A DNA stretch of 64,000 nucleotides from Eubacterium plexicaudatum ASF492. GTDB lineage: Bacteria > Bacillota > Clostridia > Lachnospirales > Lachnospiraceae. Below the pieces are notes generated by a model. That model searched no databases, was not told the origin of the DNA, and worked only from the letters and a program-made list of their open reading frames with translations. The position numbers and the translations under genes were made by a program. The stretch lies in NCBI RefSeq assembly GCF_000364225.2, contig NZ_AQFT02000001.1:434001-498000 (forward strand). The letters are read 5' to 3'. This document shows positions 7,964 to 27,879 of this stretch, in pieces. Each line of letters opens with the position of its first letter. Positions within the stretch are counted from its first letter, which is position 1.

Positions 7964-10003
7964 ATGAAGAAACAGACAGAGAAAGACAAACTCACAGCCC
8001 TTTACGAAAGATTATCCCATGACGACGAGCGAGCCGGGGAAAGCGTATCTATCGAGAACCAAAAGCGGATTTTAGAGGACTACGCAAGAAAGAACGGTTT
8101 TACCAATATCCGGCATTTTACGGACGACGGAATCCGGGGAACTACGTTCAAGCGTCCGGGGCTGGACGCTATGTTAGAGGAAATCCGGGCGGGGAACGTG
8201 GCAACGGTCATCATCAAAGACCAGAGCCGAATCGGGCGTGACGTGGTTGAAGTGGGGCTTTTGAAGCGCACTTTTGATGAATACCATGTGCGCTTTATCG
8301 CCGCCAATGACAACCTTGACACCGCCAACGGCTTTGATATTATGTCGATTTTCCGTGACGTGATAAACGAGTGGTATGTTGCCGACACCAGCCGGAAAAT
8401 CAAGACCGTTTTCAAGTCCAGAATGGAAAAGGGCTTGCGCTGCTCTGGTAGTGTCTGCTATGGCTACCGCGCTTCCAAAGAGGAAAAAGGCGAATGGATA
8501 ATTGACGAGGAAGCCGCCGCCGTTGTGCGCCGTATCTTTCAGAGCGTCCTTGCCGGGGAAACCATAGCCAGCATAGCAAAAGCACTCCGCGCCGAGAAAA
8601 TTCCTATCCCGTCCGAGCATTGGAAGCGGACAGGCGAGCCAGTCCGGGCGGCAAAGTACGCCGACCCCTACGCATGGTCAGCTACCACTATCGGCTACAT
8701 ACTGAAACGCCCGGAATACACAGGGCGCAAGGTATTGGGGAAAACCGTATGCGAGAACTACAAGACCAAAAGCACCCGCAAGACCACGCCGGAGGAACAG
8801 CACGTTTTTGAGGGCGCAATCCCCGCCATTGTGGACGAGGAAACATGGAGAACGGTACAGAAGATACTGGAAACCGTGCGCCGCGCCCCGAAGCGGCAGA
8901 ACGCCCCGAACCGCTTGACCGGGCTTCTCTACTGCGCCGACTGCGGCTCAAAACTCACACACCGCTACAACCTTGTGCAAGGGAAATGGATTGAGGACGC
9001 TTTTGTCTGCTCCGGCTACCGCCAGCTTACCCATGACTGCACCATACACTATATCCCCACAGCGAAGATAGAAGCCGCCATTCTTGCCGTTATCCAGCGC
9101 GTGAGCTGGTATGTGCGGCACAATGAAAAGGAGTTTACAGAGCGCGTCCGGGAAGCGTCCGACCAGAACCAAGAAAAGACCGTCAAGGAGTGCAAGCAGA
9201 AAATCAGCAAGGCACAGAAGCGGCACAAGGAGCTGGACGGGCTTGTGAAAAAGCTGTATGAGGGCAACGCCACGGGCAAGATACCCGACAAACATTTTAC
9301 CCGGCTGCTGAATGAATATGACGAGGAACAGACCGAACTGGAAACGTCCATAGCCGAATGGCAGAGGCAGATTGAAAACTGGAACGCCGACAGGCTGAAA
9401 ACAGACCAGTTTATCCAGCTTGTGAAACGCTATACCGACTTCTCCGAGCTTACAACGCCCATGCTCAATGAGTTTATTGAGAAAGTGGTTGTGCATGAGG
9501 GCGAGGGACGGGGGAATGACCGCCGCCAGCGGATAGACATCTACCTAAACTTTATCGGGGCTTTTGAAGTGCCGGAATATATTGTCACCCCGGCAGAGGT
9601 AGAGGAACAACGCCGCCAGCATGAGGAACAGGCGGCAAAGGAAGCCCGGTCAAAGGAGCTTGCAAAGGCGCGGTATGAGAAACGCAAGGCAGAAAAACGG
9701 GAATTTACCGCAAGGAAGAAAGCGGGGCTTCTCACCCCGGAAGAACTGGAAGCGGAGGAAAATCGGCTTGCACACAACCGGGAGTGGCAAAAGGAATGGC
9801 GGGAGAAACGAAAAGCCAGCGAGCCAGAGAAGCCGCCCAAGCAGAAATCCATAAAGGAGCTTATGGCGGTTGAAAAGACCGGGGCAGACCTCACGCCGGA
9901 GGAAACAGAACGGCTTGCGGCATACCGCCGGAAGAAAGCCGACCAGCAGAGGGCAAGGCGGGAGGGAAAGAAAAGCGACCAGCCGAAAAGAAAAGTCAGT
10001 TAG
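7964..10003 (+). CDS. Large serine recombinase 1 (TnpX/TndX-type)
   Basis: 679 residues. The N-terminal resolvase domain has catalytic Ser18 in 'LYERLSHDDE', 'DDGIRGTTFKRPG' and 'DQSRIGRDVVEVG'. It is followed by the recombinase domain and a zinc ribbon ('LLYCADCGSKL' ... 'FVCSGY...DCTIHYI', about 325-370), a long coiled coil (about 395-475) and a charged C-terminal tail. Such enzymes excise and integrate transposons through a circular intermediate using a dinucleotide core. It lies at the break in virD4, so it probably brought this insertion in, but the partner right end was not found, suggesting later loss. Confidence 0.92.
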   Translation: MKKQTEKDKLTALYERLSHDDERAGESVSIENQKRILEDYARKNGFTNIRHFTDDGIRGTTFKRPGLDAMLEEIRAGNVATVIIKDQSRIGRDVVEVGLLKRTFDEYHVRFIAANDNLDTANGFDIMSIFRDVINEWYVADTSRKIKTVFKSRMEKGLRCSGSVCYGYRASKEEKGEWIIDEEAAAVVRRIFQSVLAGETIASIAKALRAEKIPIPSEHWKRTGEPVRAAKYADPYAWSATTIGYILKRPEYTGRKVLGKTVCENYKTKSTRKTTPEEQHVFEGAIPAIVDEETWRTVQKILETVRRAPKRQNAPNRLTGLLYCADCGSKLTHRYNLVQGKWIEDAFVCSGYRQLTHDCTIHYIPTAKIEAAILAVIQRVSWYVRHNEKEFTERVREASDQNQEKTVKECKQKISKAQKRHKELDGLVKKLYEGNATGKIPDKHFTRLLNEYDEEQTELETSIAEWQRQIENWNADRLKTDQFIQLVKRYTDFSELTTPMLNEFIEKVVVHEGEGRGNDRRQRIDIYLNFIGAFEVPEYIVTPAEVEEQRRQHEEQAAKEARSKELAKARYEKRKAEKREFTARKKAGLLTPEELEAEENRLAHNREWQKEWREKRKASEPEKPPKQKSIKELMAVEKTGADLTPEETERLAAYRRKKADQQRARREGKKSDQPKRKVS

Positions 10004-10016
10004 TGGGGGAAGCCCC

Positions 10017-11316
10017 ATATGCACTAACTTTACTGCAAATTCATGAAATTCATGGTATACTCAAAAAGGGTGAATTTTTATGGATACAAATGATTTAGTA
10101 AAATTACTGCCGCCAGGCTATGAACAGGCGTGCTTTGATAAAAAAGCGATCACAAGAAAACGGACCATTAAAAATCCTTTGGATTTATTGCGGCTGATCT
10201 TATTTTATCTTTCCGGTAATAAGTCTTTGATTGATGTAACACATTTCGCTTTGTTAAGCGGCATTGGCAAATCAGTGATGTTGCTTTTATGAAAAAGTTC
10301 ATACAGTGCGGGGACTGGATCAAATGGCTGACGCAAAACATCCTTCCAAATCCTATCATGCACTATAAAAAGCCTGGCTGGCTTGAATCTTATCAGGTGC
10401 TTGCAGTGGATGCCTCTGATCTTGTGGAGAAAGGCGCGGTAAAACGACTATGGCATTTGCATTATGCTGTGGATTTATTTTCCCTGACCTGCAGCCAGTT
10501 CAAAATAACGGAACAATCTACAGGGGAAAGCCTTAAAAATTTTACGTTCAGCAAAGGCTGCCTGGTGATAGCAGACCGCGCGTATGGCACAATAAAAAGC
10601 ATAGGACACTGCCTGGATGCAGGAGCTGATTTTATTCTGCGGATCAAGAATAAGGCATTTAACATGTATGATAGAAGCGGACAGAAAATCATATTGGCTG
10701 ACTGGCTTTTGACAGTCGGTGAAAAAGCTGCTGAATGCACGGTATATATAAATGGGAGTGATAAAAAACGGACTGCTTTAAGGCTCTGTGCCATAAAGAA
10801 AACAAAAGAAGAAATACGGGCAGAAGAAAAACGGTTAAAGAAATTGGAAAGTAAAAAACAAAAACCTATAGTGAAGAAACAAAATTTACTCACCGGTATA
10901 TGTTTGTGATTACCTCTCTTCCAGCAGAAATTTCTGCGGAGGAAATCCTTGCATGCTACCGTTTACGCTGGCAGGTCGAGCTTGTGTTCAAAAGATTGAA
11001 ATCGCTGCTGCAGTTAGGAAACATCCCAACCAAAACAAAAGAATCCGGGGAAGTTTGGATCAGCGGGAAAATCCTGCTGTCGCTTCTTACAGAAAATATC
11101 TTGGGGATATTGATTTTTCCCCCACTTGGAACATCAGAAGAAAACCGGAGTATATGGAGGGAGACAAAACTGACGTCATTTATAATTTTTATGATGATAC
11201 TGCCCAATCAGGCGGCAATGTCCGTTGATATTCTGGAATTGATACAAATGTCATTTATTGAAAAACGAAAAATCCAAGACAGCAGCTTATTCGGTTTTTG
11301 TTAAGTTAGTGCATAT
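10017..11316 (+). mobile_element. IS4-family (IS231-like) insertion sequence
   Basis: A 1300-bp element with terminal inverted repeats ATATGCACTAACTT / AAGTTAGTGCATAT (10017-10030, 11303-11316) and a perfect 12-bp target duplication. It landed just past the stop codon of serine recombinase 1, leaving that gene intact. It holds one transposase gene. The exact ends and duplication suggest a recent insertion. Confidence 0.9.
10080..11304 (+). pseudogene. IS4-family transposase, two frameshifts
   Basis: Three successive open pieces (10080-10292, 10289-10909, 10900-11304) join into one transposase of about 407 residues if one A is restored at about 10270 and one at about 10862. DDE residues fit 'VLAVDASDLV', 'LVIADRAYG' and the C-terminal 'YRLRWQVELVFKRLKSLL' (the Y-(2)-R-(3)-E-(6)-K signature of IS4). 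The copy is otherwise complete and its ends are perfect, so the breaks may be base-calling errors and not inactivation. Confidence 0.8.
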
Positions 11317-15211: not shown

Positions 15212-15397
15212 ATGGATTGCACAGAAGCATACAGGGAACACATCATGTATTCTTTCAATGGCTTTTGCAAAGTCGTCATACGCTATGCCGCTATCAACGC
15301 ATGGCGCGACAGGAACAGGCGGCGGCAAAGAGAAATATCCCTTGATAAGTACATAGTGAAATCCATGTTGTTTCGTCTTTGTGTGAAAGTGGCTTAA
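15212..15397 (+). pseudogene. Truncated sigma-70-like regulator of conjugative elements
   Basis: About 45 codons, 'MDCTEAYREHIMYSFNGFCKVVIRYAAINAWRDRNRRRQREISLD', match the start of the short sigma-70-like proteins common in Tn1549-type elements. The likeness ends after 'EISLD' (about 15345), where AT-rich sequence with att-like features takes over, and the frame closes after 16 unrelated codons. The gene was probably cut by a recombination or insertion at this point. The remainder was not seen elsewhere in the window. Confidence 0.55.
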
Positions 15398-15523
15398 AAT
15401 CAAGGGATTTTAGGCTTTTTTCTTATTACTCAAAAGTTTTAGTTAGTGTCTTTATTTGTATTCTGTTTAAAAAAGTATGTCAAATAATATGTCATAGAAT
15501 GATGCTAATGGTAGGAGCAATAG

Positions 15524-16287
15524 TCAATTTTTGTCTAGGATTAGTTCATTTACTAATAAGTCAATATTTTCCATAATTGTTTGAGGTGTAAGTTTTACTA
15601 ATAGATATTCTTTATCATATGTAGCCATTAGTTTTTGTTTATTAATAATTATTTTTTCTACTATTTCTCTTCCTTCTGGATATTGAATGATTTTTTATCT
15701 TTTTGAATTTCGAGCAACAATTCTTTCTGTATATGGTATAACATTGCCTTTTCAGCAGATGGACGTTTTTCCTCATAAATATCATCAATTATTTGGCCAA
15801 ACACATCAGTCGTAGAAAATTTTAATATTTCACGATGTTTTCGGCCAGAGTATATAGTTTCTTTATCTTTTGGGTTTATCGGATTAGTTATAGTGATTTC
15901 TTTGTTGTGTGAATTTACATATTTTAGTATATAAAAAAGTAATGTTTCAATTCGAGGATGCTTTAATAAATCATTTAAAACTGAAACAAGAAGTTCATTT
16001 AAATTAACCAAAATCTCGGAAGCATCAGTATCTAATGATGTTACATCACAAATAGTCTGTTCTTGGTGTTTTTTGCAATCCTGTTCACCAAGTAAGTAAG
16101 CAACATCTACATTAAATATTTTTGCTATTTTCTTTGTGGTATCTAACGGAGGTAGTTTTGCCCCGCTTCTCAAATATTTTTTTATTGTATCAACGGAAAC
16201 ATTTAATTCCATAGCAACTCTATCTTGTGTCCAACCTTTATCTTGGTAACATTTCTTGAAACGTGTACTAAATATACTCTTATTCAT
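15524..16287 (-). pseudogene. XRE-family repressor of the satellite-like block, frameshifted
   Basis: The N-terminal helix-turn-helix ('KGWTQDRVAMELNVSVDTIKKYLRSGAKLPPLDTTKKIAKIFNV', about 16-60) is of Cro/CI type. The longest frame stops at 15661, but restoring one A at about 15693 continues it as 'KKIIQYPEGREIVEKIIINKQKLMATYDKEYLL...' to a stop at 15524-15526, giving about 254 residues. It is transcribed divergently from the excisionase-like gene, with a strong promoter between them, which is the usual layout of a lysogeny-type switch. The C-terminal domain may sense an inducer. That is inference. Confidence 0.75.
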
Positions 16288-16331
16288 TATATAACCTCCT
16301 GCAAATGGTATAAAGTTTATTTTCTATACAC

Positions 16332-16359
16332 ATTATAACATGATATTCTGTAATTGCAA
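16332..16359 (-). promoter_or_regulatory. Promoter of the XRE repressor gene
   Basis: On the minus strand TTGCAA, 16-bp spacer, perfect TATAAT (plus-strand positions 16354-16359 and 16332-16337). The start codon lies 45 bp further on behind AGGAGG. The divergent gene's own promoter must overlap this region, which suits mutual repression. Confidence 0.6.
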
Positions 16360-16389
16360 TAAATAATAACGAAACAGGAGGAACTTAAA

Positions 16390-16584
16390 ATGAATTTAGC
16401 AAAAAATCGTAATCAAGATGGCACGTTAATTACTTTAACACAAGCTTGCCAAGAATCTAATTTAGGGGCAACCGCAGTTAGGAAGATTGCAGAAGAAAGT
16501 GGAGCAGTGCGGAAGATAGGAAGAAGCTACAGAATAAAAAAGAGCATATTTTTTGATTATATTGAAAAAGTGTATGCTGAATGA
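16390..16584 (+). CDS. Excisionase/AlpA-like helix-turn-helix protein
   Basis: 64 residues: 'ITLTQACQESNLGATAVRKIAEESGAVRKIGRSYRIKKSIFFDYIEKVYAE' is a MerR/AlpA/Xis-type winged helix with the typical 'sY.I.K..F..YI' end. Ribosome site AGGAGGAAC. It is the first gene of the rightward satellite-like operon and overlaps the next by ATGA. In P4 and SaPI-like islands such proteins activate excision or replication. No integrase gene accompanies it here. Confidence 0.7.
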   Translation: MNLAKNRNQDGTLITLTQACQESNLGATAVRKIAEESGAVRKIGRSYRIKKSIFFDYIEKVYAE

Positions 16585-17465
16585 GTGGTGATAACATGGC
16601 AGATTTCTATATTCCCCCACAGATGAAGCAACGCAGCAATTTTATACTGTGGAAGTTAGAAACAGATGAGAAAGGGAAACAGCGTAAAATACCATATTCA
16701 GCTTTATACAATGGCAGGGCAAGCACAACTAACAGCAGGGCATGGACATCATATGAAAATGCTTTGCAAGGTCTTAAATCGGGCAAATACGGCGGTTTGG
16801 GCTTTGTTCTTGATAAAGATATTACATTCATTGATTTAGACCATTGTAGGAGCGATAACGGGGTTTTAACGCCATTAGCAAAGAACATAATTGATAATTT
16901 CAAAGATACATTTATTGAAGTATCGCAAAGCGGAAACGGATTGCATATTTTTGTTTTGGGAACAGTGAAAAAGGCAGTAAAGACAAAAGAAATTGAATTA
17001 TATTCCACAGGGCGGTATGCGGCTTTAACTGGTAATGCTGTCAATCCTGTAGATTTATCAGAAGCACAACAGAGAATTGATATACTTTACAATTATTGTA
17101 ACAGAGGAAAAAAGGAAAAAGAGAATACAAGGAGGCTTCCACAGTGTGGTTTGTTGCTGTCGGAGCGTGAAGTTATAGAAAAAGCTGAAAATGGCAGGAA
17201 TGGACAAGTATTTTCGGACTTATTAAATGGTAATTGGAAATGTCTTGGAATTGGTGACGGCACACAATCCAGCGCAGATTTAAAGTTTGCAAATATGCTT
17301 GCTTTTTGGTGCGGATGCAGTGAGGGCATTATGCGTGATATATTCAGAAGTTCGGGAATGTACAGGAATGAAAGAAAGATGAATCTGGCTATTAAAAAGC
17401 TATTTCGGATTGCCATACCGTATATCGGGGAGGTGGTGGGATGTGACAGAGGAAAGTATTGTTGA
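16581..17465 (+). CDS. Phage-type primase-polymerase-like protein
   Basis: 294 residues. 'RSNFILWKLETDEKGKQRKIPYS', 'GLGFVLDKDITFIDLDHCRSD' and 'FIEVSQSGNGLHIFVLG' give the ligands of the archaeo-eukaryotic primase fold used by phage and satellite primases (Asp-x-Asp, then S-x-S-x-x-G-x-H), and 'ELYSTGRYAALTGN' is the usual following strand. The gene is translationally coupled to the upstream HTH gene. It overlaps the helicase gene (GTG 17443) by 23 bp. Together with that helicase it should start replication of the block. Family call is from motifs only. Confidence 0.75.
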   Translation: MSGDNMADFYIPPQMKQRSNFILWKLETDEKGKQRKIPYSALYNGRASTTNSRAWTSYENALQGLKSGKYGGLGFVLDKDITFIDLDHCRSDNGVLTPLAKNIIDNFKDTFIEVSQSGNGLHIFVLGTVKKAVKTKEIELYSTGRYAALTGNAVNPVDLSEAQQRIDILYNYCNRGKKEKENTRRLPQCGLLLSEREVIEKAENGRNGQVFSDLLNGNWKCLGIGDGTQSSADLKFANMLAFWCGCSEGIMRDIFRSSGMYRNERKMNLAIKKLFRIAIPYIGEVVGCDRGKYC

Positions 17466-18892
17466 GTGGCTGAAAATGAAAAACGCAATCAGAACTTATT
17501 CGCATGATGACATAGGTTCCGCAAGGTTGTTGTCTGATATATTCAATAAAATGTGTAGATACAATGCTACGGCCAGTGAATGGTATGAATTTAACGGGAA
17601 GTATTGGGCGATTGATTTAGGCGGCTTGAAAGTGCGGAACATGACAAAGATTCTGGCGAAAGCACTTATCAAATATGCAGTGTCGGCATCAGAGGATGAT
17701 AATAAATATCTGAAATATGCGGCAACATGGAATGAACACCGAAAACGAAATACAATCATCCAGGATGCAAGGGATCTGAATTTTTTAAGAATGAAGATTG
17801 TGATATTGATATGTATATCCTGAATTGTCTGAATGGCGTTTTAGTGTTGCATCAAGATAGTGTTGAATTTATCAAGCATGACCCGGATTTGCTATTAACG
17901 CAGATTGCGAATGTTCGGTATGATCCGGACAAGCCATGTGAACGGTGGGAAAAATTTGTTGATGAAGTTATGGAGGGCAATCAAGAGAAAGTCCGTTATC
18001 TGCAAAAACTATTCGGCATTTGTCTAACTGGTGATACAAGGCTTGAAAAATGTGGTTTTTATTTGGCAGTACAACAAGAAACGGAAAATCTACAATGATT
18101 GAAACAATTTCAAATTTGCTAGGAACTTATGCTGTATCAGTCAGGGCAGAAACATTGGCAATTAAAAATAATACAGACAGCCGGACGGCAAGTCCAGATA
18201 TTGCAAAACTGGCAGGAAAACGGCTTGCAGTTGCATCAGAACCGCAAAAGAGAATGGCCTTAGATGTTGCGCTGCTAAAAAGTATGACTGGACGAGATAC
18301 CATATCGGCAAGATTTTTACATCAGTCCGAGTTCCAGTTTACGCCTTGCTTTAAACTGATTTGTAACACAAATTATCTTCCTATTGTCAGTGATACCACT
18401 ATTTTTAAGTCAGACCGGGTACAGGTTATTTCATTTGACCGACATTTTGCGGAGAGTGAACAGGATAAAACGCTAAAGAATAAATTATCTACAGGCAATG
18501 CATTAAGCGGAATCTTAAACTGGTGTATTTCTGGATGGTTACTTTTTTGTAAAGAGGGGTTGGACGAGCCGGAGAATATCCGGGCGGCTACAGTGGAATA
18601 CGCTAATTCCTCTGATAAAATGCAAAACTTTATCAATGACTGCCTTGTGGAGAAAAAAGGGTGCAATATTGCTATTAAGGATTTATATGAAAAATATGAG
18701 GAATGGTGCAACGATAACGGTTTTCATACAGAAAATAAGCGGAATTTTATTGATGATGTGAAGTCAAAGAACATTTACAAGGCATCCGGAACAGTGAACG
18801 GCAAAACGGTTCGCAACATTATTCGGGGGTATGATTTTGCAAGTGAAGATTTTATTGAAATTGATGAATCAGAGCCATTGCCATTTGATTAG
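17443..18892 (+). pseudogene. D5/P4-type replicative helicase (SF3), two frameshifts
   Basis: Three open pieces (17443-17823, 17811-18098, 18050-18892) become one protein of about 484 residues if one T is restored at 17781-17786 and one A at 18046-18050. The N-part is the D5_N region ('YEFNGKYW'). The centre holds Walker A 'LFGSTTRNGKSTMIETI' and the SF3 segments 'KLAGKRLAVASEPQKRM', 'LLKSMTGRDTISARFLHQSEFQFTPCFKLICNTNYLPIV'. The C-terminus is the winged-helix region ('KDLYEKYEEWCNDNGF'). The start is GTG 17443 with GGGGAGG 9 bp upstream. It is the replicative partner of the primase before it. Confidence 0.85.
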
Positions 18893-18907
18893 TGAGAGGT
18901 ACAGTAT

Positions 18908-19114
18908 ATGGACTATTTCGAGGTATATCGTGAAATTTGGCAGTTTCATAAGCAGTATATTGATAGAATTTGCAATGAGGATGAATTTTGGGAAGCGGTG
19001 ATTGCTGATGCGGACAAGCTGTACAAAAAGTACGATAATTCACGATTTGCAAAAGATTTGATACTAGCAGAATTGACAGAGTTTGAGCGGATTGGCAAGG
19101 AAGAAAAAACATAG
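18908..19114 (+). CDS. Small acidic protein, unknown
   Basis: 68 residues, helical, 'MDYFEVYREIWQFHKQYIDRICNEDEFWEAVIADADKLYKKYDNSRFAKDLILAELTEFERI'. Start ATG 18908 behind GAGAGGT. Its place directly after the helicase gene and its size are as in many phage and conjugative elements, but no function is known to me. Confidence 0.6.
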   Translation: MDYFEVYREIWQFHKQYIDRICNEDEFWEAVIADADKLYKKYDNSRFAKDLILAELTEFERIGKEEKT

Positions 19115-19214
19115 TTTGTGCGTGGTGTGCATTTCCTATGGGTTGTATAAAAAATAATTTCTTTAAGGGTTTTACATGGGAAATACATATTTGCACAAAT
19201 GCAGTAATGATAAG

Positions 19215-19300
19215 GCTTCCACGGTGTGTGTGATGGCTGCCCCCCTCTGTGGAAGCAATAAAGAGTAATGAAAGAGTAAGGAATAGGCTAAGTCACACAC
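19215..19300. repeat. Nested inverted repeats between helicase and TerS-like genes
   Basis: GCTTCCAC (19215-19222) pairs with GTGGAAGC (19249-19256). GTGTGTGA (19226-19233) pairs with TCACACAC (19293-19300). A copy of GGCTTCCACAGTGTG lies inside the primase gene near 17136. The gap 19115-19365 has no gene. In satellites the replication origin commonly follows the helicase gene, so this is a candidate origin or packaging site. Confidence 0.5.
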
Positions 19301-19365
19301 AAAGGTAACGTCAATTAAAAAAGATTGAATTTTATAATTTTTTTCAGAATGAGAGGTAATAAATT

Positions 19366-19914
19366 ATGGCAGGAAAAGCACCACAAGGACAACTAACAGA
19401 GATGAACCCGGTCAAGGTAAAAGCAATCATCCACAGTTTAAGGGAACTTTACGACATGGGGAAGCCGGAAACAAACTTAGAATTGAAAGAAAGGATTGAT
19501 ATGTTTTTCCAGTTTTGCGAGGATTCCAGTGTCAGACCGGGCGTTCAAGCACTTTGCACGGCATTACATATCAGCAGAACTACTTTATATCGCTGGTCAA
19601 ATGGGGAAGATTGCGACAGGGAGCGGCAGGAAATTGTATCAATGGCAAAAAGTTTCATTGACAGTTTTTTAGAACAAGTGACATTAAGCGGTCAAGTATC
19701 GCCGCCAGTTGGGATATTCCTCTTAAAGAACTGGTGTTCGTATAAAGACACAGTTTCTATTGAGGAAAATATACCAAATACGAAAACAACGCACGTTTTG
19801 ACAGCCGCACAGCTTCCAAAGTTGGGTAATATGGCAGAGGATAGCGGTAGTAATGCAACGCTTCCTTATCTGGCAGATACAAAGCTAAACACAATAGTGG
19901 AATATGACCATTAG
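19366..19914 (+). CDS. TerS-like (terminase small subunit) DNA-binding protein
   Basis: 182 residues, ribosome site GAGAGGT. 'ELKERIDMFFQFCEDSSVRPGVQALCTALHISRTTLYRWSNGEDCDRERQEIV' contains a helix-turn-helix as in phage small terminase subunits that start packaging, and 'VSPPVGIFLLKNWCSYKDTVSIE' matches the conserved C-terminal part of gp3-like TerS proteins. Large subunit, portal and capsid genes are absent. That is normal for satellites which redirect a helper phage's packaging, and it is the main reason to think of this block as a satellite. An unrelated HTH regulator remains possible. Confidence 0.6.
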   Translation: MAGKAPQGQLTEMNPVKVKAIIHSLRELYDMGKPETNLELKERIDMFFQFCEDSSVRPGVQALCTALHISRTTLYRWSNGEDCDRERQEIVSMAKSFIDSFLEQVTLSGQVSPPVGIFLLKNWCSYKDTVSIEENIPNTKTTHVLTAAQLPKLGNMAEDSGSNATLPYLADTKLNTIVEYDH

Positions 19915-19975
19915 ATCATGATAATTTGAGGGGATAGGGTGGGTTAAAGTAAGGAAAGAATGAGGTAGAAAATGT

Positions 19976-20326
19976 ATGGATAGAGAAATGGTTATAAACA
20001 ATCTGCTTATGAATTATGGCAAATATAGCGTTACTAGAGCAGAATTAGAGCCGATTATAGATGATGGCATACAAAACTATGATTTGTCATTAGAAGCTAT
20101 ATATAGCGGTTTAAGAATGAGCCTTGCATCTGCATTTAATGAGCATGAGTATTTCTCTTTAGATGATGTGATGGCGATAACTGGGAAGAGCCGGGAAGAA
20201 CTTTTACAGAGGATAGAGCAATGTCGGCAAGAATTGATAGAAGCTGGAGAAAACCCGGACGAGTATTTCAAGCCTATAGAGCCGCAGAGGGCAGCAGTCT
20301 ATTATTTCCCTGATGGGTTGTGCTGA
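19976..20326 (+). CDS. Hypothetical protein
   Basis: 116 residues from ATG 19976. It is helical in the first two thirds, with 'YFSLDDVMAITGKSREELLQRIEQCRQELIEAGENPDEYF' resembling a small HTH or ParB-like helical domain. It is the last gene before the right att-like site. I do not recognise the family. Confidence 0.6.
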   Translation: MDREMVINNLLMNYGKYSVTRAELEPIIDDGIQNYDLSLEAIYSGLRMSLASAFNEHEYFSLDDVMAITGKSREELLQRIEQCRQELIEAGENPDEYFKPIEPQRAAVYYFPDGLC

Positions 20327-20800
20327 TACAAAGCTATTTGCATCAAAGTCTTATAAGAAAATGGTTATTGTATGTCAATAAGTATGTCAAAGTATAAAAC
20401 CAGATGCGGAAACGCCTTGAAAATCAAGCGAATGTGATTGGTATAAGCACTAATTCATACTAAGTACATATCATTTTAGGCGTGAAATCTGGACAAGATT
20501 GTGGAGAATTTTTTCTGTGATTTATGGGATTAGACATTGAATCCTATTTAGAGGGATGCGCGATATTGATGAAATTGTACCTTGAAAACTGAATAATGCG
20601 TGTGTTTGAAATTTATATTTAAGCGATATATGGGGCGAATAGAGGGGGTGACGGGCATATTATACGCTACGGAAAGACCGTGGCGGGGTTTTATAGAGTG
20701 AACGTATGTTCTTCATTAAGCTACCAGAGTAAATTTTTAAAGAAAAAGGTTTTTCAAAATTAAAAAAATAAAAAAGGCAAAAGCCGGAAAGCAGGTAAAA
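20327..20800. other. Gene-free spacer with att-like site and hairpin
   Basis: 474 bp. It contains the paired TATGTCA boxes (20371-20389), the palindromic CTTGAAAATCAAG (20416-20428), and near the end a short stem CGCTACGG/CCGTGGCG (about 20666-20686) followed by GGGGTTTT, perhaps a terminator or RNA element before the next operon. No reading frame in it looks coding. Confidence 0.45.
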
Positions 20801-21868
20801 ATGATTAAAACAGAACTTGAAATTTTCACTATGGCAAAAATCACTATGGACACATACCAGGCGAGATATGAAAAAGCGAAAGAGAGACGGAAAGAACGTT
20901 TTAGAAACCTAAATGCCAATTACAAGCCGGGAAGTCCGTTGCTTCTGGAAGAACGAAATAAAATTGTGCCGGATTTTGAAGCGGAAATTGCAAAGGCAAG
21001 AAATGACTTAATGATGGAATTTGAGGATTCTTTGATGAAGCTAAGAGCCGTTGAAACGGCAAAAGTAGCGGTCATTTCCAACGAAACAAAAACCATGATG
21101 AGTGTTTTGGACTGTCTGGAAACTAAAACAGTAAGCGTTGACGAATACAAGGTGCTAGCTGAACATTATGGAGGCAAATTGTACTGGATTGACCGACTTC
21201 TTGAACGGGTTGCCGATAAGTGCGGGATAATGGACAGCATGGTACAGCCGCCATTGTCTGTAAAGCTGGAAATCCTGCAAACATTGGAACAGAATGTAAG
21301 AGAATATATTGACGGATATGACGGCGAAAATAAATGCTTCCCTGTTACATCTTCTGACAAGTATATTTACAAAATGGAAGAATCATATACAAATGGCTAC
21401 TCCGGTGTACGTCTGGACAGCCGGGAACAGGCAAAGCGGATGATTTCAAAAGCACTGAATGAAGGAAGTTCTTTAGACCGTAGTTTTGTGCTTGCTAATA
21501 TGCTTCGTACATCAACGCCGGATATACAGGATGAAATGCTTTCCATACTGGCAGAAAAAGACCCGGCGGCACTACATGACCCAACAATGCAATTTACAGG
21601 CGTTAAGAATGTTGTTGACAGGTTCATTAAAACGGATGGCGAACTTGTAAAGGCGGCAGGCGTGGCAATGAAGAAAGCCGACAATGCAAAATCCCATCAA
21701 GAGCGCATTGGTATTTTATGGGATAATTTTGACAACCGATATCTTAGAAAAAAGATAGAAGAAAGGATTGCTGCCACAAATGATGAAGAATTGAAAGACA
21801 GCTATGAGAATATGAAAGAAATCAAAGAAGAACAGAAACAGGAAAGCAGGGCGAATAAGGGGGAATGA
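20801..21868 (+). CDS. Unknown helical protein A (paralogue of the next gene)
   Basis: 355 residues. Start ATG 20801 has the better ribosome site (AGCAGGT); an in-frame ATG at 20831 is possible. The N-terminus is highly charged and helical ('YQARYEKAKERRKERFRNL'), then 'PGSPLLLEE..KIVPDFEAEIAKAR', 'VSVDEYKVLAEHYGGKLYWIDRLLERVADKCGI' and 'LSVKLEILQTLEQ'. The same landmarks recur in the same order in the protein encoded by the next gene, so the two arose by duplication. No signal peptide, membrane helix or catalytic motif is visible. The position after a TerS-like gene allows a structural or scaffold-like role. That is speculation. Confidence 0.7.
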   Translation: MIKTELEIFTMAKITMDTYQARYEKAKERRKERFRNLNANYKPGSPLLLEERNKIVPDFEAEIAKARNDLMMEFEDSLMKLRAVETAKVAVISNETKTMMSVLDCLETKTVSVDEYKVLAEHYGGKLYWIDRLLERVADKCGIMDSMVQPPLSVKLEILQTLEQNVREYIDGYDGENKCFPVTSSDKYIYKMEESYTNGYSGVRLDSREQAKRMISKALNEGSSLDRSFVLANMLRTSTPDIQDEMLSILAEKDPAALHDPTMQFTGVKNVVDRFIKTDGELVKAAGVAMKKADNAKSHQERIGILWDNFDNRYLRKKIEERIAATNDEELKDSYENMKEIKEEQKQESRANKGE

Positions 21869-21926
21869 AAAATTTTCCCCTTAAAAATAAAAAAAGGCTA
21901 TTAAAAGAAAGCGAGGTAATTTTATT

Positions 21927-23033
21927 ATGACAAATATTTACGATTTAACAAATTTATTGCGAGAGGTACGGAGCCGCTATCAGGCAGAATTTATTGACGC
22001 AACGGAAACAAAAAAGAAAGAATTGGAGCTTTTAAAGAGCGGCTATATCCCCGGTTCTAAGCCTTATTTAGAAAAAGAACAGGAGATTGAACTTAATTTT
22101 GATGTGGCGATTGTTGGGGCAAGGGAAAAAGCGGCAAAAAAGGCGGCAGAAGAAATTGAGAACATGAAAGAATGGGAGCGCACAGGCGTTGGAACTATCA
22201 ACACAGAAGCACTTGCAAGGGTAAACGCACTTCGGGGAATCCCGGTTACAACAGAAGAATTGAAGCAGATTCTTTCTAAACATGGTTCAAGCAATTATTG
22301 GGTACAACGTGCGGTTGCGGCACTGGCAGAAGAAAACGGAATCCCGGTTACTGATTTGCCGCTTGATTCTTCCTTAGATGTGAAATTAAACGTGCTTGAC
22401 CAGCTTAGCGGACAACTGGATTTACTGTTAGAGCATTACAGCTTGACAGAAAAGACAAGGGAAGCATCGGAAGCAAGGTTTTTGTATCTTAATGACAGCA
22501 TTTTAGATAATGCGGTAAGGATTTATAACAATGGAACAAAGGATTTATCAGAAGCAGACGCTGCCGAAAGAGCATATTATAAAATCCAGGCAATGTCCGG
22601 GCAGATGTCAAAGGCGTGTGCAATTTCCAACAGTTTGCGGAATCTGAAAAAGGAAGATACAAAAAATATGTTGCTTTACAGACTTGCCATAGATGACAGC
22701 ATAAGAAGCGAAGCCTATGAGGTTGCCGGAATTTCTGATGTGATGGCAGAATGGAAAGGCGGAAAAGCTGACCGCTACGCAAGGGCGGTAAAAATGATGA
22801 ATGGTATTAAGACAATGCAGGACACAGAGAATATAAAAACAAAGTTGCGAGAGTATATAAACCGTGTTGCTATGGGTTCAGAGCCGGAAAATGAGTTTTT
22901 ACGCCATGAAATCACGAAAACATATAAGAAAAATACCTTTATTGGGCGAGCATTGGAAGAAATGAGCGGAGCGGAGAAAAATACACTTTTCGGGAGCAGT
23001 GCAGAGCCGGAGGGTGGCACAACAGCGGAGTAA
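21927..23033 (+). CDS. Unknown helical protein B (paralogue of the previous gene)
   Basis: 368 residues, ribosome site GCGAGGT. Landmarks shared with protein A: 'YQAEFIDATETKKKELELLKSGYIPGSKPYLEKEQEIELNFDVAIVGAR', 'VTTEELKQILSKHGSSNYWVQRAVAALAEENGI', 'LDVKLNVLDQL'. Overall identity looks low, so the duplication is old and the two have diverged, perhaps as partners of one complex. The middle holds a helical repeat-like segment, and the C-terminus ends in an acidic, Gly-rich tail. It lies 58 bp after protein A, in the same direction. Unrecognised family. Confidence 0.7.
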   Translation: MTNIYDLTNLLREVRSRYQAEFIDATETKKKELELLKSGYIPGSKPYLEKEQEIELNFDVAIVGAREKAAKKAAEEIENMKEWERTGVGTINTEALARVNALRGIPVTTEELKQILSKHGSSNYWVQRAVAALAEENGIPVTDLPLDSSLDVKLNVLDQLSGQLDLLLEHYSLTEKTREASEARFLYLNDSILDNAVRIYNNGTKDLSEADAAERAYYKIQAMSGQMSKACAISNSLRNLKKEDTKNMLLYRLAIDDSIRSEAYEVAGISDVMAEWKGGKADRYARAVKMMNGIKTMQDTENIKTKLREYINRVAMGSEPENEFLRHEITKTYKKNTFIGRALEEMSGAEKNTLFGSSAEPEGGTTAE

Positions 23034-23050
23034 CCTTTTCCCTGGCAAAT

Positions 23051-23213
23051 TAAAAGGGAAGTAGCACTGAAAATGGTTCTTTCTGTACTTTGGGTATCAG
23101 CACATTCTCAAGATTTGCTATAAACCACTAAACTGGCTTAGTAAAGCAAAATGAGAATAGATGGAGTTACCCAAACATCAGAAAGAACCCTGAAAATACA
23201 TACTTCCCTTTTA
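23051..23213. repeat. 163-nt extended hairpin upstream of sigma-70 gene
   Basis: Successive paired segments: TAAAAGGGAAGTA (23051-23063) with 23201-23213 (13 bp perfect); GGTTCTTTCTG (23075-23085) with 23179-23189 (11 bp perfect); TTTGGGT with ACCCAAA; ATTCTCA with TGAGAAT; ATTTGCT with AGCAAA(A)T; ACTAA with TTAGT closing a 6-nt loop. It fills almost the whole 228-bp gap between protein B and the sigma gene. It could be a MITE, a structured RNA or a replication structure. Confidence 0.75.
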
Positions 23214-23261
23214 TCTCCTATACATCTACTCAAATTATAATCTAAAGGTAGGTGTATTACA

Positions 23262-24294
23262 ATGACGAATGAACAAATTGTTTCTGAAATCAGGAACGGT
23301 TTTTCCACAACAAATAATATGCAATTACTGTACGAAAGCAATCTGCCATTGATTAAAAAATTCATAAAGCCTTATACCGCCTATGAGTGTGAAGCCGACC
23401 TATTGCAAGAAAGCTACTTCGGATTACTGGAGGCAGTAAAACGCTATGAAACAGATAGAAACGTGCAATTTATGACTTTTGCACAATACTGGATAAAACA
23501 ATCAGTACAGCGGTATCTTGAAAATTGCGGTTCTACCGTCCGCATACCTACCCACACGAGGGCGAAAATGTCACGCATACGGAAAGCCACAAGCCAGTTA
23601 AGGCAGGAGCAAGGCAGAGAGCCAGTACCAACAGAGATAGCAGCTTTATCGGGCGTATCAGTGGAAGAAGTGCAGGAGATACAAGGCTATATGCAATCGG
23701 TAATAAGTTTAGATACGCCGATAGCAGAGGACAACAGCTTGACACTTGCGGATACGCTACAAGCCGATTTAAGCGTTGAAAATGATACAGTTGATAAAAT
23801 ACTCTGAATACTCTAAAAATGAATTATGGGGCATTGTGGAGCGTTACACAGCCACAAGGGAGAATGACATAATCAAAGAAATTTTCCTGCACAATAAAAC
23901 AATGTCGGCAGTTGCACGAGAACAAGGCGTAACCATAGACAGAATACGCCAGATAAAGGAAAAAGGACTGCGGCGGTTGCGGATGAGCAAGGCAAAGCGT
24001 GAACTATTGGAAAGGTTTGATATTGCTGAAGCCGGACTATTCCGAGGCGGCTTGAATAATTATCGGGAACACAAATTCACTTCCATTGTGGAGTATTTAG
24101 CAGAAAAACGAATTGAAGCAGAAAAACGATATAAAAGACATTTAGCGGAAATTGAGGAAATACACAGAAAAAGGCTTGAACGAAATTCGGAAAAGCCAGA
24201 CTTGCTTTCAAATGAAGGAGAGTGCAAAATTCAGCTTGTAGACCAAATGAACCACAAGCTGAAAATAGGTGTAGACCAAATGAACCACGCCTAA
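23262..24294 (+). pseudogene. Sigma-70 family sigma factor (regions 2-4), frameshifted
   Basis: Two frames (23262-23807 and 23776-24294) join into one protein if the A-run at 23796-23799 is one base shorter ('TVDKYSEYSKNELWG'). The first has region 2 ('AYECEADLLQESYFGLLEAVKRYETDRNVQFMTFAQYWIKQSVQRYL') and region 3 ('IRIPTHTRAKMSRI'-like). The second has region 4 with 'NKTMSAVAREQGVTIDRIRQIKEKGLRRLR'. It is a group 2/3-like factor, larger than the ECF type at 11689, with an unusual C-terminal extension of about 90 residues. It may control late genes of the surrounding element. Confidence 0.85.
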
Positions 24295-24429
24295 AAAGAT
24301 ATTGCCCGATAGAGAAATATGTGTTATATTGTCAATACGGAAAAGTCATAGAGCCAGGCGGCTTTACCCCTCTTATTTTTTCGGAGGGTTCAAAGTAGCC
24401 CTCCAGACGAAAGAAAGGAGGGCGATTCA

Positions 24430-24525
24430 ATGTACGTTACATATCAGGATTTAATTCAGATAGGTATACTCATTGTTGCCCTTGCGAATTTGCTTTATCA
24501 GATTTACAAGGGAAAAAAGAAATAG
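24430..24525 (+). CDS. Holin-like small toxin (type I toxin-antitoxin)
   Basis: 31 residues, MYVTYQDLIQIGILIVALANLLYQIYKGKKK: a single TM helix with a Lys-rich end, as in the Hol_Tox/BsrG/Fst-like membrane toxins. Start ATG 24430 behind AAAGGAGGGCG. It is followed directly by a hairpin that can end transcription from both sides, the standard place for the antisense antitoxin RNA. The upstream CGGAGGGTTCAAAGTAGCCC region can also fold. The antitoxin RNA itself is inferred. Confidence 0.65.
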   Translation: MYVTYQDLIQIGILIVALANLLYQIYKGKKK

Positions 24526-24551
24526 CCGCCACTACTGCCAATAGTGACGGC
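24525..24551. terminator. Hairpin after holin-like toxin (possible bidirectional terminator)
   Basis: GCCGCCACTA pairs with TAGTGACGGC (9 of 10) around a short loop, starting at the last base of the toxin stop codon. It probably ends the toxin mRNA and, on the other strand, the antitoxin RNA. Confidence 0.55.
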
Positions 24552-24682
24552 TTGCCTTTACAACGCAAATTGTAGAGGTAAGTAATTTGTTATTTGGAGG
24601 GGTAGCCGCTTCTATGGCTTTTCCCTTTTCTTATATCTAAGATAGCACATCCGGGAGCAGGACGCAAGTAATTTTTGTTTCC

Positions 24683-25084
24683 TCATTCTTCTTTATCTGG
24701 CGCATTGTTTTCTTTTTGGGTGTAACGTGGTATTTCGGTTAGTTCTTGTACCCTTTTATCTGCTTCACGTTTTCCTGTATCATTGAGTTTTGAATAATTA
24801 TCAAGTAGACTTGAGGGAAGTGTTGTTATTATACCGTTGTCAATTTGACGTTTTATTTGCGATTTTGTTTCAACGAGTTTATTAAATTCCTCTATACCCA
24901 TTATGTCAGATAAAGATACCTCTAGGGCGGTGGCTAATTTTTGCATCGTTTCTAAAGTTAAATTTGCTCTTGGGGATTCCCATTGTCCTATCATTTGTTG
25001 AGAAACACCAAGTAATGCCCCTAGTTCCTTTTGCGAAAGTCCTTTTTTTTGTCTGACATTTTTGATGCGTTCGCTAACGCCCAT
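24683..25084 (-). CDS. XRE-family transcriptional regulator
   Basis: 133 residues from ATG 25084 (behind GGAGGTGGTAAA, read on the minus strand). The HTH is 'QKKGLSQKELGALLGVSQQMIGQWESPRANLTLETMQKLATALEVSLSDIM' (residues 11-62). The C-terminal half is charged and helical and may dimerise. It is divergent from another XRE gene at 25230, with promoters between, so cross-regulation is likely. Confidence 0.8.
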   Translation of the reverse strand: MGVSERIKNVRQKKGLSQKELGALLGVSQQMIGQWESPRANLTLETMQKLATALEVSLSDIMGIEEFNKLVETKSQIKRQIDNGIITTLPSSLLDNYSKLNDTGKREADKRVQELTEIPRYTQKENNAPDKEE

Positions 25085-25151
25085 TTTACCACCTCCAAAA
25101 TCAATATAACACATTTCTACAATAATAACAAGAAAATACTTGTTTTTGACA

Positions 25152-25180
25152 TTGACACCAGTTATATGTTGTGATATTGT
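25152..25180 (+). promoter_or_regulatory. Promoter for the small XRE gene
   Basis: TTGACA (25152-25157, preceded by a second TTGACA at 25146), 17-bp spacer, TATTGT (25175-25180), 50 bp before the start codon. It lies in the divergent gap between two XRE genes. Confidence 0.5.
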
Positions 25181-25229
25181 GTTTATACAATATAAAACTT
25201 GTGAAGTTAAAGAAAACGGAGGTAGAACA

Positions 25230-25439
25230 ATGAAAATGAGGTTAGACAAAAGGAAAATCTACCTTGCAATGGCTGAAAAAGGCTTGACGGCTACAGAGAT
25301 AGCCAAGCAAGGCGGCGTAAGCCAACAGGCAATATCTAATGCGCTGAATGGTAACGGAATGGGGAGAGTAAAAGTTGTTCCTGCTATCTGTAAAGCATTG
25401 GACTTATCGGCAAAGGATATTGTGATTATTGAAGATTAG
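25230..25439 (+). CDS. Small XRE-family HTH protein
   Basis: 69 residues from ATG 25230 (ribosome site ACGGAGGT), essentially one HTH domain: 'YLAMAEKGLTATEIAKQGGVSQQAISNALNGNGMGRVKVVPAICKALDLSAKDIVI'. It resembles phage Cro-like proteins and the short regulators of integrative elements. It probably acts against the divergent XRE repressor. Confidence 0.75.
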   Translation: MKMRLDKRKIYLAMAEKGLTATEIAKQGGVSQQAISNALNGNGMGRVKVVPAICKALDLSAKDIVIIED

Positions 25440-25561
25440 GTATTTTGAAAATTACTTTTCATCCCATTTTCTTGTGGGATAACATCTATTCTCTTATCTG
25501 GCTATCTGACAGCCTAAAACAATGCTTTGTATGTTTTTCGGACAAAGCAAGGAACCGTAAA

Positions 25562-25696
25562 CAATGCCATTCGTCATAGATGGCGAGCCACAGAAAGGAA
25601 GTGTATGCAGACCAGAGAAAATAAAAAATGCCCTCACAGAGCCGCAACCTCTGACAAGGGCAAGTAACCCGGAAATCACAAAAGCCGGATACTGAA
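25562..25696 (+). CDS. Small hypothetical protein (weak support)
   Basis: 44 codons, 'MPFVIDGEPQKGSVCRPEKIKNALTEPQPLTRASNPEITKAGY'. The composition looks protein-like and the frame ends inside the hairpin at 25683-25716. No clear ribosome site was seen. The rest of the 25440-25809 gap holds a short TCCCA/TGGGA stem and no other convincing gene. Confidence 0.3.
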
Positions 25697-25716
25697 ATAT
25701 TGTATCATATCCGGCT
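25683..25716 (+). terminator. Hairpin terminator
   Basis: AGCCGGATA (25683-25691) pairs perfectly with TATCCGGCT (25708-25716). The downstream tract is A-rich, so termination would be stronger on the minus strand, but the stem is good. Confidence 0.45.
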
Positions 25717-25809
25717 GAAAAATAAAAGAAATGGCAAAAAAATCTTAAAACAAAAGGAACAACACAGACGTTACACAATCAACAGTTTTTAAAGAAAGGA
25801 CATGATTTT

Positions 25810-26265
25810 ATGGGAATTTTTAAGAAAAAAAGAAAACAGCCAACAAAGGAAGAACTGCAAAGCATCCTTGCCAGCTACAAACGCCAGACGGCAGAAATTA
25901 CGGACGAAACGGCAATAGACATGATGGACACTGAAAAGAAAAATGATTTTTTCCTGCTTTTGAAAGTAGCCGACTATGCACAGATGGGAAAATCGCGGGC
26001 GATACTGACCGATTTCAAGCTGGGGTATCTGAAAGGGAAAACAAAGCAGGAGCCGGATGTGCATAATCTGGAATTTCAGGATGTTATTTCAGAAGCAGCA
26101 TTAAAACTGGAAAAGGCATCAACCGTGCTGCGGACAACGATAGAAGCTAATTCCCTGAGCAAGACAGGCCTTACAAGGGATGAAATAGTTGCAATCGGCG
26201 GCTGTGCGTCCAATATCTGCGATATGATGTTTGTTGCGGATGATTATTTATACCTGAATCCGTGA
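25810..26265 (+). CDS. Hypothetical protein
   Basis: 151 residues, ribosome site AAAGAAAGGACATGATTTT. A Lys-rich start 'MGIFKKKRKQPTKEEL' is followed by a helical soluble protein. The sequence 'RDEIVAIGGCASNICDMMFVADDYLYLNP' ends it. I do not recognise a family. The IS1380-type element lies directly downstream. Confidence 0.6.
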   Translation: MGIFKKKRKQPTKEELQSILASYKRQTAEITDETAIDMMDTEKKNDFFLLLKVADYAQMGKSRAILTDFKLGYLKGKTKQEPDVHNLEFQDVISEAALKLEKASTVLRTTIEANSLSKTGLTRDEIVAIGGCASNICDMMFVADDYLYLNP

Positions 26266-26378
26266 ACCCAGCCTCGCATTTCCAAATCCAAAGCTAGTAC
26301 TTATGCTGTTTTGCTGAGCATTTGCGTATTTCAAGTATTTAACCCAATGGGTTATGGCAAATATTTCATTTTTTAATG

Positions 26379-26437
26379 CATTGCAGTACCATATCCTGTA
26401 TAATAAAGGTATCAATTTATACGGAAGTACTGCAATG
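26379..26437 (+). promoter_or_regulatory. Hairpin that buries the IS1380-type transposase start codon
   Basis: CATTGCAGTAC (26379-26389) pairs perfectly with GTACTGCAATG (26427-26437), whose last three bases are the start codon. Read-through RNA from outside would fold and block translation, while RNA started inside at a promoter near the loop would lack the left arm. This is a known way for insertion elements to stay quiet. Confidence 0.5.
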
Positions 26438-27805
26438 AAAACCATACATATAGAGTTCAGTGATGAACGATTAATTACACCCAGCGGACTTGTGTTTGTG
26501 GGACAGATTCTTGGCAAAAGCAACTTTGTCAAAAAGATTAATCGGGCACCTATATCGAATGAGTATCTGCAAAAGCAGATAAAAAATGGTGACATTCTCC
26601 TGACTTATATTGGTATGCTCTGTCAGGGCAAACCGCAGTACGAAGCCGTCCGCGAAATGATGGATGATCCCGACTATTACAAATATGCCCTTGGAATCGC
26701 ATATGCGATTCCATCCGCAGAAACCCTCCGCCAGCGTTTCGATATGATTGGCGATTCCCTGCGTGGAGATATCCTTCAGGCAAATATCGACATGCTGCGT
26801 GAGATGAAGATCGAACCTGCCGCACTTGAAAATGGCTATGTGCCGGTGGACATTGACGTCACTCCGTTTGATAATTCAAAGACCAAAAAGGAGGGCGTTT
26901 CCCGTACCTATAAAGGATTTGATGGTTATGCACCAATCATGGCTTATATAGGAACAGAAGGTTATTTTGTCAATACGCAGCTCCGCGTTGGGAAACAGCA
27001 CTGCCAGAAAGAAACACCGGATTTCCTGCGCGAGACAATTGAGCTGTGCCGCCAGCTGACCGATAAACCATTACTCATCCGGCTTGATTCCGGCAATGAT
27101 GCATCCGAGAACATTGGCATCTTTATGGAAGAGAGTTACAGGTACAACAATGTGTCTTTCATCATCAAGCGTAATCCACGGCAGGAAAGCAAGGAGGAAT
27201 GGCTTGCATCTGTGAAGGACTGCTGTACGAATATCCAAAAACCGAGGGATGGAAAGACCGTTTACATCGGGCAGACATTCCGCGATGTAACCTACACGCT
27301 TCCTAATAAAACAGAGAAGACGGCAGGCATACGCACCATCTATGAAATCACCGAACGTACTATTGATAAGCATGGACAGTATTTCATTGTTCCGGATATT
27401 GAGCTTGACACATATTGGACAAATCTGCCTTTGTCAGACCAGAACATTATAGATCTTTACCACGCACACGGCGAAAGTGAGCAGTACCACAGCGAGATAA
27501 AGACAGATATGGATGTGGAAAGACTTCCATCGGGAAAATTTGACAGCAACAAGCTTGTGCTTGAACTTACAATCATTGCTTATAATATCCTGAGAATTGT
27601 AGGCCAGGAATCGCTGAAAAAGCGTGATGACCCGGGACGGAAGAAAGTCCGCCGACGCAGGATACGCACAATCATCAGTAACCTGATGCAGTTTGCAGGC
27701 CATTTAACTGAGCATGCAGGACGTCTGGTACTGTCCATAGGCAGAAGCAACCGATGGCGGTTCACATTCAAGCGGATTTACGACAGTTTCGCTTCCGTGT
27801 CTTAA
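26435..27805 (+). CDS. IS1380-family transposase
   Basis: 456 residues from ATG 26435 ('MKTIHIEFSDERLI', the usual family start; a longer in-frame ATG at 26354 is less likely). DDE core: 'VPVDIDVTPFDNS' (first Asp), 'LLIRLDSGNDASENI' (second Asp) and 'HAHGESEQYHSEIKTDMDVERLPSGKF' (Glu region). Complete and uninterrupted. I could not define the terminal repeats or target duplication. It separates the XRE/hypothetical region from the 5'-truncated group II intron. Confidence 0.85.
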   Translation: MKTIHIEFSDERLITPSGLVFVGQILGKSNFVKKINRAPISNEYLQKQIKNGDILLTYIGMLCQGKPQYEAVREMMDDPDYYKYALGIAYAIPSAETLRQRFDMIGDSLRGDILQANIDMLREMKIEPAALENGYVPVDIDVTPFDNSKTKKEGVSRTYKGFDGYAPIMAYIGTEGYFVNTQLRVGKQHCQKETPDFLRETIELCRQLTDKPLLIRLDSGNDASENIGIFMEESYRYNNVSFIIKRNPRQESKEEWLASVKDCCTNIQKPRDGKTVYIGQTFRDVTYTLPNKTEKTAGIRTIYEITERTIDKHGQYFIVPDIELDTYWTNLPLSDQNIIDLYHAHGESEQYHSEIKTDMDVERLPSGKFDSNKLVLELTIIAYNILRIVGQESLKKRDDPGRKKVRRRRIRTIISNLMQFAGHLTEHAGRLVLSIGRSNRWRFTFKRIYDSFASVS

Positions 27806-27879
27806 TAGTCAATAACTGAATAAGCTGATACAGCACAGGCATATGCACTGTGGTCTGTTTGCCGACCTCTAATATATAT

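Follow-up and report, generated by a model that had tools for sequence, protein, structure and literature searches.

What lies at positions 15396–20428 of a 64,000-nucleotide stretch of the Eubacterium plexicaudatum ASF492 genome? This stretch (the window) covers positions 434001–498000 of contig C1 in an assembly (G000) of 6.74 Mb and six contigs. A sequence-only reading had proposed that the 5-kb block is a phage satellite-like island without an integrase, and family scans bore out most of its gene list (Table 1): a divergent repressor, an excisionase-like helix-turn-helix (HTH) protein, a primase of the archaeo-eukaryotic primase (AEP) type, and a candidate terminase small subunit (TerS) were all recovered. 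The D5 helicase was recovered as well, as a D5/P4 family match, with the correction that it is split over three frames in the window (approximately 17443–17823, 17811–18098, and 18050–18892, with shifts near 17.78 and 18.05 kb), whereas in the homologous locus of Lachnospiraceae bacterium 526-35 (L085; QXWV01000021.1) it is a single 494-aa open reading frame (ORF). The claimed absences also held: Pfam and PHROG family scans recognized no integrase in the block, a tblastn search of 15342–26300 with seven integrases gave no match, and no structural or lysis gene was recognized among the genes scanned in 15342–26265, where two proteins match no family. The "nested repeats" proved unremarkable, being short, imperfect families of two and three copies. 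Set against phage-inducible chromosomal islands (PICIs), the window has a divergent repressor with excisionase and primase genes, its own replication module, a TerS gene, and no recognized structural or lysis genes; the integrase and terminal attachment (att) repeats are missing here and present in four related loci (L085, L086, L145, and L149).

Does the block end at 20428? The DNA match to L085 runs from window 16587 to 21916 (L085 7216–12552; 91%) and is continuous across 20428 (blastn); further matching blocks reach 25691, and a separate match at the left end covers 15342–15419. In L085, 35-bp direct repeats (5907–5941 and 19750–19784; 97%) bound a 13.9-kb element, the right repeat lying just ahead of a clpB-like gene with a Clp_N domain. 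A full-length tyrosine integrase (394 aa, 18433–19617) sits beside this repeat and is followed by three TATGTCA sites. The insertion sites of the two copies differ—the sigma-factor gene of an integrative and conjugative element (ICE) in the window and the clpB-like gene in L085—and the right neighbor of the block is the same in both; therefore, the mobile unit exceeds 5 kb, and 20428 is not its end. A search for the same block in other genomes found it in L085, joined to an integrase-bearing right module, and in no genome on its own. The satellite would span at least 10.9 kb in the window (15342 to 26265 or beyond) vs. 13.9 kb in 526-35. The source genome has a clpB-like gene of its own, which is preceded by one uninterrupted core-like copy.

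With moderate confidence, we interpret the block as the left module of a PICI-like satellite that was later truncated, losing its integrase-bearing right end. As such, it is more likely a stranded remnant than a novel, minimal mobile island. What carries this interpretation is the gene content, the left end common to both genomes, the continuation past 20428, the integrase and repeats at the far right of L085, and the lack of that end in the window.

Table 1. Features of the satellite and its surroundings in the window
Feature	Position	Strand	Basis
ICE sigma-factor gene, 5′ part, interrupted by the satellite	15212–15345	+	Residues 1–47 of 148 left, 81% match
Satellite left end, up to TATGTCA pair (15476, 15488)	15342–15494	+	L085 homology from 15342, within 3 bp of the end of the L085 35-bp repeat
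Cro/CI-type repressor, divergent	15661–16287	−	HTH_3 PF01381 8e-8; phrog_8 4e-16
Excisionase-like HTH protein	16390–16584	+	DUF6462 3e-9; phrog_16129 (excisionase) 1.3e-9
Primase (AEP, NrS-1-like)	16581–17465	+	phrog_1829 2.6e-64; NrS-1 HBD domain PF22763 7e-11; PDB primases to 3e-24
D5/P4-type helicase	17443–18892	+	D5_N, DUF5906, Pox_D5; TIGR01613 above cut-off
Conserved 68-aa protein preceding TerS	18908–19114	+	blastp matches in L085, L082, L083, L090, L145, L146, L148
Candidate P22 gp3-type TerS	19366–19914	+	PF16677 above cut-off; phrog_606; VIA-align Z 9.3 to 3p9a
116-aa protein, no function assigned	19976–20326	+	Common to L082, L085, L146, L148
Internal att-like site: TATGTCA pair (20371, 20383), AAAATCAAG (20420), core-like 24-mer (20444)	20371–20467	+	
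Two proteins (355 and 368 aa), first of right module, no function assigned	20801–23033	+	No Pfam/PHROG family
Sigma-70-family factor, frame broken near 23.80 kb	23262–24294	+	Sigma70_r2/r3/r4; phrog_351 6e-37
Further right-module DNA, last recognizable satellite DNA	24302–26265	+	blastn to L085 15145–16541
HTH_3 gene	24683–25249	−	HTH_3
HTH_3 gene	25140–25439	+	HTH_3
151-aa gene	25810–26265	+	Distant match (29%, E 1e-5) to 87-aa L085 protein
Debris at expected integrase end: DDE transposase, reverse transcriptase (two frames), coupling-protein fragment (by eye), large serine recombinase	26354–32152	+	Pfam DDE_Tnp_1_4, RVT_1, Resolvase/Recombinase; translations

How well are the borders of the element defined? 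A typical ICE sigma factor, used as a protein query against the source genome, matched here over residues 1–47 at 81%. At the DNA level, where the flank is compared with the other copies of the gene in the genome, each of the four longest matches ended at window 15345. The left junction coincides with the left end of the L085 element to within 3–4 bp, with different neighboring genes. On this basis, a left end at ~15342, adjoining the ICE sigma-factor gene, is genuine, and the left border lies closer to this position than to the 15396 first proposed. A search of the window and the genome for a second copy of the left flank (a possible right att site) revealed no second junction; its hits were confined to further copies of the ICE sigma gene and short stretches matching a 15-bp motif, GGCTTAAAATCAAGG. 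Pairs of TATGTCA with the identical 12-bp spacing that the sequence-only reading had remarked upon occur exactly twice in the 64 kb (15476/15488 and 20371/20383; spacers of 3–7 allowed, 0 expected in 100 shuffles), and L085 has them at the same two places. The other proposed border mark, AAAATCAAG, is present at both borders and is weak evidence as judged from its frequency: the window holds 8 copies vs. 1.55 expected, and the left copy is part of GGCTTAAAATCAAGG (window 15391–15405). As a candidate att core it was rejected, the core of the L085 35-bp repeat preceding AAAATCAAG on the left and following it on the right. GGCTTAAAATCAAGG itself is found at five places in the genome (the window copy and G000:C1 276189, 693373, 4130756, and 4936923) and in 3 of 40 relatives; its reversed control had none.

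The right border at 20428 fails as the end of a mobile unit, given the homology that crosses it, and survives as a conserved att-like site. The arrangement at 20371–20467 recurs in L085 at 11004–11100. A 24-mer core, taken from the left end of L085, is matched at 20 or more of its 24 positions at only three places in that locus—the two ends and position 11077, the mid site, which follows the middle TATGTCA pair—a level reached by none of 100 dinucleotide shuffles. The mid core matches at 20/24 in L085 and at 17/24 in the window, where the copy at 20444, beside the right TATGTCA pair, is the sole place in 64 kb with 17/24 or better; this copy is suggestive only together with its position. Identity between the two genomes at the mid site is 79–83% in 300-bp bins, below most of the coding DNA around it. 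We read 20371–20467 as a predicted att-like site in both genomes, most likely the scar, now worn, left where two elements once joined in tandem: one would have kept the repressor, replication, and TerS genes and the other the sigma factor and integrase. To the left of the L085 element, a truncated integrase ORF (4998–5909) runs up to the 35-bp repeat, and still farther left (1965–2354) another terminase-like HTH protein is encoded. Because the truncated integrase precedes the left repeat, the L085 locus looks array-like, and the two genes are perhaps the remains of a third array element.

What became of the integrase end? None of the next four proteins of L085 (o156, o223, o111b, and the integrase) matches the window significantly, and debris, including a reverse transcriptase that we take to be of the group II intron type, occupies the place where they would be expected. 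The source genome yields 29 integrase matches, the five best only 33–40% identical to the L085 integrase; paired TATGTCA was absent from four of these five (L132–L135; stretches of 5.5–7 kb), the fifth (C1:4993296) lying outside the check. With a transposase, reverse transcriptase, coupling-protein fragments, and serine recombinases around it, the satellite sits in nested ICE debris. Elsewhere in the window, the N-terminal part of a coupling-protein gene (7383–7910; NF045973 1e-20, CD1115-type, below the model cut-off as expected for a fragment) lies just before a large serine recombinase, and a second coupling-protein fragment (~29900–30140, by eye) lies ahead of another, which suggests that serine-recombinase elements inserted in the ICE coupling-protein gene.

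How might such a satellite work, and how did this copy become stranded? Reasoning from the modules, a helper phage would lift the repressor, and Int and Xis would excise the element as a circle; the primase-helicase would replicate the circle, and the P22-type TerS would steer the helper's large terminase (TerL) to satellite DNA. One role of the sigma factor in the right module may be the timing of late genes. TerL genes at four places in the source genome mark candidate helpers. The window copy would have entered the ICE sigma-factor gene, probably by Int acting at a secondary site, since the left end of the element is where the junction lies; its integrase end would then have been lost to transposon and ICE rearrangement, so that the copy could not excise by its own enzyme. 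Lodged in an ICE, a satellite could, in addition, be transferred by conjugation. Because int is missing and induction by a helper is only a prediction, we do not file the block as a PICI.

Is the TerS-like product a packaging protein? The HMM check gave 30.8 bits to Pfam GP3_package (PF16677; cut-off 29.4) and 1e-5 to phrog_606, a terminase small subunit family that the L002 homolog matches at 3e-12. An AlphaFold model built on a nine-row alignment has a fair-to-confident core (~21–120) and a low-confidence tail (mean predicted local distance difference test score 66). VIA-align places P22 TerS (3p9a) first, aligning 90 residues at 3.8 Å with Z 9.3, ahead of a runner-up at Z 5.7; since a Z below ~13 may be trivial for helical bundles, we take this match as support, not proof. 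The call of a TerS-like gene was upheld by these results. Among 72,556 plasmid records the protein had no match, and among 50,697 phages it had one (28%), in an unannotated fecal contig.

Relatives of this TerS show what a complete element looks like. Close homologs occur at 15 loci: the window, L002, L003, L082, L083, L085–L090, L145, L146, L148, and L149 (L086 is on the same contig as L147; the distant L091 and L150–L152, at 25–30%, were left out). A tyrosine integrase is present in 10 of the 15 (L002, L003, L082, L083, L085, L086, L089, L145, L146, and L149, that of L003 cut by the contig end); of the other five, the window has lost it, L087 and L148 are represented by short contigs, L090 is circular, and the stretch of L088 that was covered shows none. 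Sigma factors accompany nine (the window, L002, L003, L083, L085, L086, L088, L145, and L146). Four loci are complete integrated elements of 9.6–13.9 kb with 23–43-bp repeats: L085, with its 35-bp repeats; L086, 10.2 kb long, whose 34-bp repeats lie where a class II tRNA synthetase gene ends; L145, also 10.2 kb, with 43-bp repeats at a GGGtGRT gene; and L149 (9.6 kb, 23-bp repeats). L083 and L090 have exact terminal repeats of 70 and 77 bp, as in circular contigs. These relatives with int and direct repeats, together with the TerS, repressor, and replication genes, sustain the proposed satellite character, and the predicted gene content points to a PICI-like satellite lineage. A TerS survey of 397 family genomes found 9 positives, including the window's own genome and three distant ones; an earlier search of 61 genomes found only the window's own. 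No description of a Lachnospiraceae TerS/sigma satellite family was found in the open-access literature (most subscription journals were outside the scope). The claim of a satellite without an integrase thus gives way to that of a satellite lineage whose identified hosts are Lachnospiraceae. Its members have a P22-type TerS, frequently accompanied by a sigma factor and occasionally by a tape measure protein; in one array, an integrase-less unit lies between att-type sites.

Which other explanations deserve weight? Besides a relic that had lost its integrase, the sequence-only reading had offered a minimal, independent satellite of 5 kb, delimited by AAAATCAAG and mobilized in trans. We consider the latter very improbable: the gene set is compact, the borders look alike, and a satellite of ~6 kb is known (PICMI115, 6110 bp; PMC10803314), though one with an integrase, but the unit that moved was larger than 5 kb, with the same right neighbor at a different locus in the second genome, and AAAATCAAG is too common in the window, and on the left too much a part of a wider motif, to bound it. 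The relic fits better, as the L085 block is joined to an integrase-bearing module whose end is absent from the window. Nor do we give much credence to a phage or ICE replication-regulation fragment whose "TerS" would regulate transcription. The protein's HTH-type matches, its location inside ICE debris, modest PHROG and Foldseek matches, and a PDB sequence profile without TerS would all suit a regulator; the Pfam gp3 score above cut-off, the lead of P22 TerS in VIA-align, and the same gene in ~10-kb direct repeat-flanked elements with int and a repressor and no recognized structural gene argue otherwise.

It is possible, if rather doubtful, that the block is an att-flanked, integrase-less unit still mobile in cis or trans, a satellite counterpart of the cis-mobilizable elements (CIMEs) of ICEs. 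The Int of a neighboring or related element would recombine the left end with 20371–20467, excising a 5.1-kb circle. The anatomy makes a cis-moved unit of this kind possible: TATGTCA pairs stand at both ends of the block, with an att-like core at the right one in both genomes; repressor, excisionase-like, replication, and TerS genes lie between them; and in L085 the integrase-less unit is distal and the integrase-bearing unit is beside the target gene, the order reported for Streptococcus salivarius CIME arrays (PMC7563491). Against mobility stand the divergence of the mid core from the end core and the lower conservation of that stretch, the lack of any genome with the block alone, and the low identity of the five best genome integrases, with no paired TATGTCA near the four checked. 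A two-part satellite, in which an integrase-less, att-flanked unit would spread by tandem attachment, at a single att site, to an integrase-bearing partner that had shed its own repressor, replication, and TerS genes, so that the two units divide the labor, is likewise a tentative idea. If cis-mobilization were true, the CIME idea would extend from conjugative elements to phage satellites.

Several observations weigh against the truncated-satellite interpretation that we prefer. A close homolog is present in just one other genome (L085), and the tandem-fusion history therefore rests on two copies. Neither a relative with the block ending at 20428 nor a surviving right junction was found. The 17/24 core copy in the window is weak alone (shuffles: mean 0.23, largest 2). 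TATGTCA is a presumed integrase arm site by virtue of position alone; viral contigs yielded no close relatives of the L085 integrase, and a viral scan for TATGTCA-N5-TATGTCAAAG returned eight contigs, none matching the seven integrases. Foldseek of the TerS model alone was not significant (E 2.6), a TerS profile search of PDB sequences retrieved no TerS chain, and the TerS of L085 is itself split (10001–10213 and 10277–10540). The unbroken-looking L090 and L149 are among the six loci without a sigma factor. The helicase and sigma frame breaks, moreover, may be assembly errors, because rpoB and (by eye) rplJ of the source genome are frameshifted too (L162 10900–13500, read from translations); "decay" therefore rests on the missing integrase end, and the argument that frameshifts prove it was dropped, these being essential genes of the same assembly. 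The assembly carries indel errors, and any split ORF in the window should be interpreted cautiously.

How does the lineage compare with known satellites? The traits of PICIs, and of the Staphylococcus aureus pathogenicity islands (SaPIs), used here are partly general background. Like these Gram-positive islands (PMC13376191 and PMC11389934), the block has a divergent repressor, an excisionase-like gene, a primase-helicase, TerS, and no recognized capsid genes, and its relatives are direct repeat-flanked elements of ~10–14 kb with int. Unlike them, the lineage has a P22 gp3-like TerS and, in 9 of 15 loci, a sigma factor; int is missing in the window, whereas in L085, L086, and L149 it occupies the end opposite the repressor and in L145 it is the repressor's neighbor; and induction by a helper is a prediction. 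The Vibrio phage-inducible chromosomal minimalist islands (PICMIs) are similarly small and devoid of capsid-remodeling genes. They carry int, alpA, and primase, and the word "terminase" is absent from the main text of PMC10803314, whereas the block has no int and its xis-like gene matches DUF6462, with AlpA not among the matches. In the composite islands of S. salivarius, integrase-less CIMEs are farthest from the target gene (PMC7563491), and L085 is alike in that att-type sites enclose such a unit and its tandem partner beside the target gene carries int; it differs in its phage-satellite replication and packaging genes and its worn mid site. Measured against a CIME, the window has the left end and the att-like mid site, the latter with a diverged core, and a neighboring unit without an integrase end. 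P4-like satellites share the P4-family primase/helicase domain (TIGR01613) and differ from the block, which has TerS; no P4 capsid-size or polarity-suppression gene was recognized in general family scans, which included no search by name.

Tape measure proteins occur in two relatives. L090 (1–15654) is a circular-looking 15.6-kb sequence with a 77-bp terminal repeat that encodes a ParA-type ATPase, a DUF6017 protein, a P22-type TerS, and a tape measure protein and has no match to the seven integrases; it is a plasmid-like relative of these satellites. L088 (4999–12660) is satellite-like, with TerS, a 327-aa protein, a 1028-aa tape measure protein, a small serine recombinase, and a sigma factor. 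The 355-aa protein of the right module is 90% identical in L085 and 54% in L090, and its predicted model is all-helical; a search of viral models found nothing at E ≤ 0.001, two uncharacterized siphovirus proteins topping the list. Its 368-aa neighbor is 58% identical in L083 and 34% identical to the protein at the equivalent L085 place. The 116-aa protein reaches 90–94% in L146, L085, and L082 (partial in L146 and L082) and 49% in L148. The sigma-factor gene of the satellite is a single ORF in L083 and L145; in the window and L085 (13855–14819) its frame breaks at almost identical positions, and in L146 it is split elsewhere.

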